Assembly (NCBI GenBank): GCA_008933995.1
Contig: WARS01000054.1
Location: 3,029,001-3,093,000 of the forward strand
Reading direction: 5' to 3'
DNA from: Datnioides undecimradiatus
Lineage: Eukaryota > Chordata > Actinopteri > Lobotiformes > Datnioididae
DNA length: 64,000 nt
Shown piece after piece: positions 41,222 through 45,499 of the stretch. The notes under the pieces are model-generated. The model saw nothing but the letters and a program-made list of their open reading frames with translations, did not search any database and had not been told where the DNA came from. The translations under genes were made by a program, and so were the position numbers. Positions within the stretch are counted from its first letter, which is position 1. The number at the start of each line of letters is the position of its first letter.

Positions 41222-41467
41222 AACATACTCCATTCACTCATGTTAATCCAGTGTAGCGACACTATAATCTTCCTGACCGCCCCACAGTCTTGCTCCTTTG
41301 CACCTGTTTACATCTTAGGTGTATATCACATAATGAATGAATGAAACAGAGACACACTGGGTTAAATGGAGCGAATCATATTCTTCATATTAAAGGTTAG
41401 TATTAGAGCTGTAGGGTTTAGGCTATGACTACATAACAGGGAACTTTACTGTGATCATCAGTCAGTA

Positions 41468-42035
41468 TGTCATGAATTCAGCCTCCTGCTCCTAGTGGTC
41501 CCTCCCAGCTGCTGTTGCTCCTACTCACACCCCCTGCTTTCACTCCAATGAGGATTTGCCAAGTTTTCCCGCCAGAGGGCTTCCTCCTCCCATGGACTAT
41601 CCCCCAGCATCTTGTCTCAGCCTATCAGCAATCAGTCTCCCTGTTCAACCACCACCTGTTGCCCGTTTCCCAATTGACTCTGGGTACTTATACAAGTCAG
41701 TGTGCTTCTGTTCCCTGCCAGATCGTTGTTTGAGCCCCAGCCAGCTTCGCATCACGCTTGATTGTTTGTTTACCTGATTCTGGATCGTTGACCTCTGCCT
41801 GTTCCCGGTTCACGATTTTGCTTGACGTCTTCTGTACCTCTGCAACGGACTAAGTATATCAGTTTTTGGGATTTTTGACCTCTGCCTGCCCCTGGTTTAT
41901 GATCTGTCTGATATCTTCTGTGCCTTAGCAACGGACTGTGTTCTGGAATATCCCTTGTTATAATAAATCTCTCAGTTTGGTTGACTACAGCCTCCACTTC
42001 CTGACTCTGCGTTTGGGTCCTTCTGACGTGTGACA
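41468..42035 (+). repeat. Left LTR, Ty3/Gypsy-like
   Basis: 568 bp with TGTCA/TGACA ends. It contains a TATA-like 'TTATACAAG' near 41690 and an AATAAA at 41962-41967 (poly(A) signal). Its 3' portion has the 'CTGCGTTTGGGTCC' stretch seen in many fish Gypsy LTRs. Two degenerate tandem units (41788-41851 and 41875-41937, offset 87 bp) both start 'TTGACCTCTGCCTG' and end 'CAACGGAC'. Open frames through it are not genes. Confidence 0.85.
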
Positions 42036-42157
42036 GTACGATCTGGCCAATCAAAAAGAGTACATCACAGATAACATGAGAAACCAGCGAGTTCATTAAG
42101 GGAGACACTGAAAGGTCGAGGAGTCGGGACTCATGTAGTGTGAACTCTGAGTGGTTC
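42036..42157 (-). pseudogene. arid1a: Antisense duplicate of the ARID1A 3' coding end
   Basis: The 122 bp just inside the left LTR is the reverse complement of 42887-43008. It encodes the last ~37 codons of ARID1A on the minus strand (ENHSEF to LFLIGQ). It joins the centre at a 5-bp inverted repeat, GTGGT-TC-ACCAC (42151-42162). Confidence 0.88.
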
Positions 42158-43002
42158 ACCACGAGATGTCTAAACATCCAGGGGTGCTGCTACTACTGGG
42201 CCGCCTGATCCTGCTGCACCACAGGCACCCAGAGCGCAAACAGGCTCCACTTACCTATGAGAAAGATGAGGATTCGGACAAAGGAGTGGGCCAAAGGGAT
42301 GAATGGTGGTGGGACTGCTTGGGGCTTCTGAGAGAGAACACACTGGTCACTTTGGCGAACATCTCAGGCCAACTCGACCTCTCCATCTACCCTGAGAGCA
42401 TCTGCTTGCCTCTGTTGGATGGTCTCCTCCACTGGGCTGTTTGCCCTTCAGCAGAAGCCCAGGACCCCTTCCCTACCCTTGGCCCCCCCCCCCCAGTGCT
42501 TTGTCACCTCAGAGACTGGTCTTGGAGACGCTAAGCAAACTAAGCATCCAAGACAACAACATGGACCTCATCTTGGCAACTCCGCCCTTCAGTCGGTTGG
42601 AGAAGCTATATGGGAACCTGGTGCGGCTAATTGGAGACAGGAAGAGTGCAGTCTGCAGGGAGATGGTTGTGGTCCTACTGGCCAACTTGGTCCAGGGTGA
42701 TACAATGGCAGCCCGAAAGGCAGTGTGGGTAACTTGCTGGGCTTCCTGGAAGATAGTCTGGCTGCCACACAGCTTCAGCAGAGCCAGAGCTCTCTACTAC
42801 ACCTACAGGGGATGCACTTCGAGCCCACTAGCCCGGATGATGCGGCGAGCTGCGCGGGCTCTGCACGCCTTAGCCAAGGTGGAGGAGAACCACTCAGAGT
42901 TCACACTACATGAGTCCCGACTCCTCGACCTTTCAGTGTCTCCCTTAATGAACTCGCTGGTTTCTCATGTTATCTGTGATGTACTCTTTTTGATTGGCCA
43001 GA
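42158..43002 (+). pseudogene. arid1a: ARID1A C-terminal (BAF250_C) fragment, frameshifted
   Basis: Sense copy of roughly the last 270 codons of ARID1A, the ARID subunit of BAF (SWI/SNF) chromatin remodellers. Recognisable blocks are '[12 protein letters not shown]' (ATG at 42166), 'EWWWDCL', '[16 protein letters not shown]', '[19 protein letters not shown]', '[15 protein letters not shown]', '[15 protein letters not shown]' and '[20 protein letters not shown]'. It matches ARID1A better than ARID1B (for example [15 protein letters not shown]). A poly-C run at 42483-42494 shifts frame. A short deletion near 42717 removes about eight codons and shifts again, and a third shift near 42838 restores frame. 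The normal Ser-stop end is replaced by read-through into the right LTR. No introns are present, but this region is normally a single last exon, so that does not prove retroposition. Not expected to make a functional protein. Confidence 0.9.
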
Positions 43003-43008
43003 TCGTAC

Positions 43009-43576
43009 TGTCACACGTCAGAAGGACCCAAACGCAGAGTCAGGAAGTGGAGGCTGTAGTCAACCAAACTGAGAGATTTATTATAACAAGGGATATTCCA
43101 GAACACAGTCCGTTGCTAAGGCACAGAAGATATCAGACAGATCATAAACCAGGGGCAGGCAGAGGTCAAAAATCCCAAAAACTGATATACTTAGTCCGTT
43201 GCAGAGGTACAGAAGACGTCAAGCAAAATCGTGAACCGGGAACAGGCAGAGGTCAACGATCCAGAATCAGGTAAACAAACAATCAAGCGTGATGCGAAGC
43301 TGGCTGGGGCTCAAACAACGATCTGGCAGGGAACAGAAGCACACTGACTTGTATAAGTACCCAGAGTCAATTGGGAAACGGGCAACAGGTGGTGGTTGAA
43401 CAGGGAGACTGATTGCTGATAGGCTGAGACAAGATGCTGGGGGATAGTCCATGGGAGGAGGAAGCCCTCTGGCGGGAAAACTTGGCAAATCCTCATTGGA
43501 GTGAAAGCAGGGGGTGTGAGTAGGAGCAACAGCAGCTGGGAGGGACCACTAGGAGCAGGAGGCTGAATTCATGACA
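43009..43576 (-). repeat. Right LTR, inverted copy
   Basis: Reverse complement of the left LTR with the same length and ends. Its poly(A) signal lies at 43082-43077. It transcribes leftward, so both LTR promoters point into the element. Confidence 0.85.
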
Positions 43577-45499
43577 CAGTATATCTGTAATGCAGACAGT
43601 ATGTGCACTAATACTGATGGAGGAGGGTGTGATGGAGGGATGTCCTTAAGTGGATTAATGCTCCTGAGACGTTATGGATATCCTGTAATGTAATGTACAG
43701 GCTGGATCCAGGAGGTTGACCCACTGAATCTCTTATAAGCCTATGGACAACTCTGTAACACACTTAGTTTAGTACAGTAGGTCACATACTGTGGGTTAGT
43801 ATATAGGAGGTATATTTGGTATAAAAAGTTGACCACTATATTATTACTGTATTGATACTATGTTATGTTTTTCCAGCGTCTTTGATTGAATTAATGCTCT
43901 AATAAATGTAAAATGATGGCCGTGGGTACAGAAAGTAATGGTGGAGTTGTGACTCATATCAGGTTGCGGCTTCTGACTGATACTGAAATTGCTGAAATTC
44001 ATAAAATAAAGAAAATGCTGCATAGCAGAAATGCTGGTGGTATGAATGGTGATGGCAGCCTGTTGGCCTAAAACGTGGTGCAATCTGAAATATTACTGAA
44101 ATATTACAACTACTTCAATTCAGCAGAATAACATTTATTATGAGGGCGATAACTTGATGACTATTGAGTGGATTTCCACAAAACTTGGCACAGATAGCCA
44201 CAGTTCCACTTAATCACCTGTTTCTATAGGTCACATGGAAGGTGCAATTTGTCCCTCACCTGTTATATTGTTTCAGTATACATGTGACCTTTGCATAAGG
44301 ACGGACGAGGCTTGCAAGACTTGCAAATTTATCAGCGGTTTGCGATCATGATGCTGCCACCATGTGTGATTTGTCTGCTTTTGTGAAACAGACCCCAGCT
44401 GATGTTTCCTTTGAATCAATGCTGTGAGCCAAAACAGCCGGGCCCCTCTGTTTTGTAGATTGCAATTGATTTTTATTTCTTTCGTGATTTTTTTGAAAAA
44501 TATTTTAAGACTCCCCTTGAATAACTTATATAATGAGAGCTTCAAAATAGAGGAGGCTGTGAAGCTCGGAACTCGGTACACTGAGGTCTTGCAAGACTGT
44601 CAGTAAACAGCAAAGCTCAGGCTCACTAACCCAGTCTGCACGTGATGCTTCAAGAGACAAGCATAACTTTACCCTTAAACTGAGACATTGCCTCCTGACG
44701 GCAAGATTACCAACCGGTTAACATACTTACATTAGAATAATACAGTCTGCAGTCTGTCCGTCATGAATTGTGAAGTGTGAGATCAGGGCACTCTCCTCTA
44801 CAGCAGCTTGCAATTTAAGCTGATAAACCAGGCTTATTTTTACATAAAACCTGGCCTGATGCAGCTATAAGGAAGTTGGGTAGCGCACTGCAGGGTCAGC
44901 TGATGTCAGTCATTACTGGTAAACATCTGTTCTTGATACTGGCAGTGAGTAATAATGTCTGTGCGTATCAGATGGATTCTTAAGAGTGACCATTACATAT
45001 TTATGGGTAATGGTGGTGTGATGAAGAGTAAAGGTGAAACTGTATCATCATGGTGTAATCCCGCTTTGGTGGCAAAACAAGATGGTCTTACTGGTAATGA
45101 GCATGTTCTGTAAATCCTCAGCAAAGTGTTAATGTTCCCACACATTTAAGCGAGCATGGAGTAGAGAAAAGTCCTGTTTGGCCTGTAGTCCCAGTTCCCA
45201 CACCAACCACTCTCTGCAGTTTATTTGCTGGGCCTGGATCGAGTGGGCAGCTGAGGCCTTTCTGTGTGAGGCCAGCATTTTCTGCCCATCCCTCACTGCA
45301 GTCTTCCCATGGCTAAAAAGAGACAAGATCCCGCAGCCTCAGTCTTCAGTAACGAGGCAGCATACTTCACATGTGGAGCAGAAAGCTACGCACACGAAGG
45401 ATGTAAAAGTCGTGTTAGGAACCAGTTTGAATGACTCCAGTGGAGTATTTGTTATTTGGTCAGCCTTGCTCACTGTCCAGTCTAAAAGCAAGCTTTGTA

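Follow-up and report, generated by a model that had tools for sequence, protein, structure and literature searches.

An arid1a fragment between inverted Ty3/gypsy long terminal repeats in Datnioides undecimradiatus: a single insertion with U3 at both outer ends

The capture of host genes by elements with long terminal repeats (LTRs), known as LTR-mediated retroposition, was reportedly set out by Tan et al. in 2016. In this process the reverse transcriptase of an LTR element captures a host mRNA by switching templates at microsimilarities, and the copy is inserted together with LTRs (PMC5408686, PMC8232201), as has been reported for zebrafish among others (PMC5408686). Here we describe a 2,109-bp unit on contig WARS01000054.1 (contig C7) of Datnioides undecimradiatus, in which a fragment of the host gene arid1a lies between two inverted LTRs, and which was probably inserted by the integrase of a Tf1/Sushi-type Ty3/gypsy chromovirus acting on the unique 3′ (U3) ends of two one-LTR cDNAs whose arid1a ends were then joined. 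The window analysed is the whole stretch of 64,000 nucleotides at positions 3029001-3093000 of this contig, and the assembly searched comprises 581 Mb in 497 contigs. The unit shares with LTR-mediated retroposition a captured host gene and microhomology at the element-gene junction, but its LTRs are inverted rather than direct, U3 forms both of its outer ends, arid1a runs antisense to each LTR, and neither gag nor pol sequence remains inside, the unit encoding no element protein.

DIRS elements are not known to leave a target duplication. They resemble the unit in their inverted LTRs and use a tyrosine recombinase (PMC5633606), whereas the LTR family of the unit encodes an rve integrase and the unit carries a 5-bp direct repeat; DIRS was rejected on these two points. 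With the Tf1/Sushi group of Ty3/gypsy chromoviruses (PMC4600332, PMC6317226) the LTR family shares a self-primer type of primer-binding site (PBS), a chromodomain and mostly 5-bp duplications, but the unit differs in its two U3 ends and in having none of the element's proteins. Concerted integration in vitro (Li and Craigie 2005, PMC8742673) likewise joins the ends of two molecules to opposite target strands with a 5-bp duplication; the enzyme there was HIV-1 integrase, whereas here the event is inferred, concerns a Gypsy element in the germline and involves end joining afterwards. No earlier description of inverted LTRs from an integrase element was found in the literature searched, where the text consulted was that of PMC5633606 (on DIRS-1) and PMC12789967 (on attachment sites); other papers, including some on yeast chromosome rearrangements that use the term "inverted LTR", might hold one.

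Anatomy of the unit

The unit, with its LTR and arid1a content, occupies positions 41468-43576 of the window and has CAGTA on either side. Its features are as follows.

41463-41467, no strand: target-site duplication CAGTA, left, read from the sequence
41468-42035, plus strand: left LTR, U3-R-U5, TGTCA...TGACA, 568 bp, with a TATA-like site at 41689 and AATAAA at 41962
41717-41726, plus strand: predicted start of R, GCCAGATCGT, complementary to the PBS (self-primer), 28 nt past the start of the TATA-like site
42036-42047, plus strand: PBS region of the left arm, GT followed by ACGATCTGGC, identified by complementarity to the predicted RNA start
42043-42050, plus strand: capture junction of the left arm, CTGGCCAA, an 8-nt microhomology between element and antisense arid1a
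42043-42157, minus strand: arid1a, 115 bp, antisense to the left LTR and identical to the parent gene
42157-42158, no strand: central junction GTGGTTC/ACCACGAG, 0 nt microhomology
42158-43001, plus strand: arid1a copy in sense, 844 bp, in parent sense AATG/ACCACGAG...GGCCAG/TCATGA
42994-43001, minus strand: capture junction of the right arm, CTGGCCAA, mirroring 42043-42050 in the identical arm (site L038)
42997-43008, minus strand: PBS region of the right arm, mirroring 42036-42047 (site L038)
43009-43576, minus strand: right LTR, inverted, 568 bp, 100% identical to the left LTR by arm comparison
43577-43581, no strand: target-site duplication CAGTA, right, read from the sequence

The coordinates confirm the outline given by a first-pass annotation of this stretch, namely identical 690-bp inverted arms with TGTCA...TGACA LTRs around a 729-bp sense centre, bounded by CAGTA. 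The arms (41468-42157 and 42887-43576) are reverse complements with 100% identity over 690 bp, the first difference falling at 42158. Each arm consists of the 568-bp LTR, 7 bp of element sequence from the PBS region and 115 bp of antisense arid1a, so that the 122 bp of antisense ARID1A originally assigned to each arm has to be shortened by the 7 bp that belong to the element. The centre (42158-42886) runs unbroken into 42887-43001 as one continuous sense copy of arid1a. In both LTRs the order of TATA-like site, AATAAA and PBS places U3 outermost, again as first annotated. A single CAGTA pair encloses the whole unit, and the same LTR-PBS-arid1a junction stands at the inner end of both LTRs, which supports one insertion; two insertions each with its own duplication would not fit. 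The left and right flanks do not mirror each other.

A short inverted repeat, GTGAAC...GTTCAC (42140-42159), spans the central junction, where folding gave no support for a hairpin (z -0.91; 35 of 200 shuffles fold equally well).

The LTR family and the parent gene

On the evidence of the PBS and of gag, integrase and chromodomain sequences in family copies on contigs C478 and C12, the LTRs are those of a Tf1/Sushi-type Ty3/gypsy chromovirus family, in agreement with the Gypsy assignment made at first pass. The 690-bp arm matched 45 pieces in the assembly, with LTR pieces elsewhere 68-94% identical. The best relative, on C478, aligns over the LTR and 15 bp past it with 32 mismatches in 584 positions (94%); another LTR, partly deleted, lies about 4.6 kb away on the same strand, making this a full element with direct LTRs, and TACTG is present at both of its ends. 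Pieces from C478 encode Retrotrans_gag/Ty3_capsid and an integrase zinc domain, and those from C12 encode rve, a Tf2-1-type SH3 domain and a chromodomain. LTR pieces on one strand and 4-5 kb apart occur on five contigs (C478, C334, C12, C30 and C468), and among the LTR matches in the assembly an opposed pair within 10 kb was found only on C7, where it is the unit itself. In the C334 and C12 copies (L014 and L005/L016) part of an LTR has been lost or the flanking repeats have diverged.

The PBS decamer at 42038-42047 is the exact complement of 41717-41726, and a 10-nt complement of this kind arose anywhere in 14 of 3,000 shuffles. The same decamer is found at LTR position 249-251 in six of the seven LTRs inspected, including that of the unit, with L005 lacking it. 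A PBS complementary to the predicted RNA start corresponds to the self-priming arrangement described for Tf1/Sushi elements (PMC4600332, PMC6317226). The LTR also holds a 70-bp direct duplication (41782-41851 and 41869-41937; 77% identity, spacing 87), with corresponding sub-matches in L003/L010, L005 and L011.

Target-site duplications were surveyed in 24 LTR rows, two of which are the ends of the C478 element (TACTG, 5 bp). Perfect direct repeats mark 12 insertions, nine of 5 bp (besides C478: L006, L007, L008, L024, L025, L028, L029 and L030) and three of 6 bp, all at solo LTRs (L004, L021 and L026). L005, L022, L023, L027 and L031 showed no perfect repeat, and L015-L020 are 5′ LTRs or partial LTRs with a single outer end. 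The 5-bp CAGTA thus fits the relatives of the LTR, whose repeats are mostly 5 bp, and the first-pass view of this length as typical stands. None of the 24 LTR loci, at 0.7-3.6 kb, had LTR matches longer than 100 bp on both strands. A 12-mer had suggested L007 as a second inverted pair, which was rejected since L007 proved to be a solo LTR that has a TGATG repeat of its own.

The arid1a identity of the captured sequence, also proposed at first pass, is far above chance: of three conceptual pieces, two hit Pfam BAF250_C (E 1.8e-48 and 6e-29; the third, of 55 aa, had no match), the pieces when joined align with human ARID1A at its C-terminus (E 8.6e-148), and the host's own arid1a is 95% identical to the copy. 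The search for a parent arid1a that had been recommended located it on contig C307, where the frame is open for 644 aa from stop to stop and ends in FLIGQS. The copied segment lies wholly inside this frame, beginning AATG/ACCACGAG and finishing GGCCAG/TCATGA, one codon short of the stop, and carries no poly(A). Searching the assembly with the loop between the arms gave five matches: besides the unit itself and the parent gene, there are more distant arid1-like loci on C4 (76%), C160 (69%) and C37 (69%), C4 carrying an open ARID1-type frame and C160 and C37 being candidates by DNA match.

Capture, integration and decay

A pattern of LTR end plus PBS, with one mismatch allowed, occurs at 18 sites in the assembly, two of them in the unit. 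At six sites (L039-L043 and L051, the last with one mismatch in the pattern) the element continues with CTGGCCAAG towards gag and has blastn similarity to the C478 gag downstream; L043 is C478 itself, and at L041 the similarity covers just 92 bp, starting about 350 bp downstream. Ten of the 18 sites have no downstream gag similarity. The two sites of the unit leave element sequence exactly after CTGGCCAA, and the antisense arid1a at the junction reads TCATGA CTGGCCAA TCAAAAAG. These 8 nt, the first of the 115 arid1a bp in each arm, are common to element and gene; when element and gene were joined at random 400,000 times, 80 of the junctions had microhomology of at least 8 nt, and the 3-kb arid1a stretch tested contains CTGGCCAA a single time. 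Plus-strand strong-stop DNA is predicted to end (...CTGGC) within these 8 nt.

Minus-strand copying of an mRNA would leave gene and LTR in the same sense, and the opposite is seen. Since arid1a is antisense to each LTR, the LTR-sense strand, that is plus-strand DNA, would have run onto the sense mRNA, and on this orientation it is most likely that plus-strand DNA copied arid1a mRNA; other conceivable routes are an arid1a transcript in antisense or a join made in DNA. The plus-strand DNA (U3-R-U5-PBS, probably the strong-stop DNA), ending ...CTGGC(CAA), would have paired with TTGGCCAG, immediately ahead of the arid1a stop, rather than with the PBS of the minus strand, and its extension along the mRNA by reverse transcriptase would have given a one-LTR cDNA of the form LTR-PBS-antisense arid1a. 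Two such cDNAs, with at least 844 nt and at least 115 nt of arid1a, would then have been paired by their U3 ends and inserted in concert, producing the CAGTA duplication, and their free arid1a ends would have been closed by cellular end joining without microhomology. Thereafter the centre would have decayed as a pseudogene, with gene conversion keeping the arms identical. Orientation and junction are the grounds for the first of these steps and divergence for the last, and the integration step is inferred; observed directly are the anatomy, the parent gene, the LTR family, the 8-nt microhomology and the flanking duplication, along with the lack of a second copy among the assembly matches.

A one-LTR cDNA has a single integrase end. 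In vitro, HIV-1 integrase pairs ends that lie on separate donor DNAs, a 5-bp duplication is present in most of the concerted products sequenced, and substrates with one U5 end only, used in a length series, also react (PMC8742673). For this reason the ready-made aberrant cDNA with inverted LTRs that the first-pass annotation had integrase accept is possible but not required. It is conceivable, though doubtful, that the locus is a germline record of two-donor integration in the full sense, with two distinct one-LTR cDNAs, primed by strong-stop DNA on a host mRNA, brought together at their U3 ends by integrase and the resulting break repaired by the host.

Insertion of two separate cDNAs is ranked above a dimer joined before insertion, though not by a test. 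Such a dimer, somewhat unlikely in our estimation yet a close rival, would arise if two one-LTR cDNAs became linked through their arid1a ends, by a strand switch of reverse transcriptase, by snap-back or by end joining, to form a linear DNA with U3 at both ends, which would then insert normally. It fits all features and needs one integration substrate only; on the other hand, the 0 nt of microhomology at the central junction disfavours a primed strand switch, and a snap-back hairpin would by our reasoning have a single 3′ end to insert, but otherwise the dimer is indistinguishable from the two-donor route. Quite improbable is a capture at the DNA level, with an arid1a exon joined to an element in the chromosome at the 8-bp microhomology and the chimera transcribed, copied and inserted: the fragment spans no intron and its RNA origin is unproven, as this would allow, but the assembly showed no LTR-arid1a junction other than those of the unit, and the junction coincides with the PBS, a place of strand transfer during reverse transcription. 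We regard an artefact of assembly or library, such as a hairpin read or consensus polishing, as very improbable. Perfect 690-bp arms beside a diverged centre would suit it, but the flanks are unlike each other and bear a direct repeat of 5 bp, the left flank matches the assembly once, in the window itself (no empty-site copy being seen there), and 15 substitutions and three indels relative to arid1a show that the centre does not come from a stray read of the gene. Among the loci inspected, solo LTRs of the family are common, which would favour two independent insertions, offered together with a chromosomal inverted duplication after one normal insertion; these are hardly credible and were rejected on the single duplication pair, the identical LTR-PBS-arid1a junction in both halves and the unmirrored flanks, given that a chromosomal fold-back would mirror the left flank too. 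A DNA transposon with long inverted repeats was likewise rejected, the arms being LTRs with a TATA-like site, AATAAA, a PBS and LTR relatives.

Several points weigh against insertion from two separate cDNAs as set out here. The search for the parent Gypsy element suggested at first pass recovered the family, but the immediate parent was not found in the assembly and the nearest LTR elsewhere is 94% identical; the RNA start of the family is predicted from the TATA-like site; and five of the 24 LTR rows lack a perfect direct repeat. The copied segment sits inside one open frame, therefore no lost intron can testify to an RNA template, and poly(A) is absent. The microhomology extends 3 nt past the predicted end of the strong-stop DNA, leaving the exact switch point uncertain, and for both halves to have the same junction, either priming must have recurred at a single site or one junction must have been copied. 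Arm identity could, moreover, reflect consensus polishing.

Relative to the parent gene the 729-bp centre has 15 substitutions and indels of +5, -16 and -2, all within 42158-42886, and the 115-bp arid1a part of the arm has no differences. With the C4 paralog as outgroup, 11 of the 15 substitutions fall on the copy lineage and two on the parent, two being left unassigned; the 11 hit the three codon positions 4/4/3, as a pseudogene would show, and two of them (42493 and 42495) adjoin an expanded C run and are alignment-dependent. This run of 12 C at 42483-42494 is five bases longer than in the parent gene and makes one of the frame breaks of the copy. The three frame-breaking indels are assigned to the copy because the parent frame is open, and were not polarised by script. 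At a rate of 11/729, two independent 690-bp arms would be expected to differ at 20.8 sites; the observed number is 0 (P about 9e-10), and for the 115-bp arid1a part alone the absence of differences is not significant (P 0.09-0.18). Later gene conversion between the arms is likely, and from the sequence is the simplest cause of their identity beside a decayed centre. A nearest LTR merely 94% alike speaks against a very recent insertion, and for a recent insertion made from an arid1a copy that had decayed beforehand, no source was found among the five loop matches. The recommended search for further copies came back empty: no second copy of the loop, of the LTR-adjoining arid1a arm or of the junction was found in the assembly, within the limits the search states for repeats. 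The first-pass term "mobilised" therefore holds in the sense of one insertion and not of a moving unit.

Elsewhere in the window, olfactomedin-like domains (PF02191) occur in two open frames on opposite strands, 5-15 kb from the unit (48252-49178, minus strand, E 1.5e-68; 58730-59251, plus strand, E 5.4e-41), and a long CTGT/ACAG-type simple repeat at 63238-63902 gives spurious reading frames on both strands. Searches for phages, for viral contigs (by pattern), against Rfam and for tRNAs gave no match. A search that listed 105 proteins had Coryphaenoides and Hucho among its named entries, as well as a frog and birds, in keeping with a ray-finned fish as the probable host.

Implications for retrotransposition

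Gene capture has been explained by template switching before second-strand synthesis (PMC5408686), a model that we read as a minus-strand switch. The orientation and breakpoint of the unit put the switch on the plus strand at the PBS instead. The unit could give rise to an LTR-driven hairpin RNA with a predicted stem of 441 bp, 115 bp of it identical to arid1a, and hence to small RNAs against arid1a and its own LTR family. The decayed centre between identical arms provides a modest case of a palindrome in which gene conversion has probably occurred. Inverted LTRs, a PBS followed by antisense gene sequence and one duplication make up a signature that can be searched for. What we describe seems an unusual side-road of retrotransposition, here in a single instance, and the insertion suggests that one-LTR cDNAs, which we would have expected to be dead ends, can reach the chromosome by way of two U3 ends.

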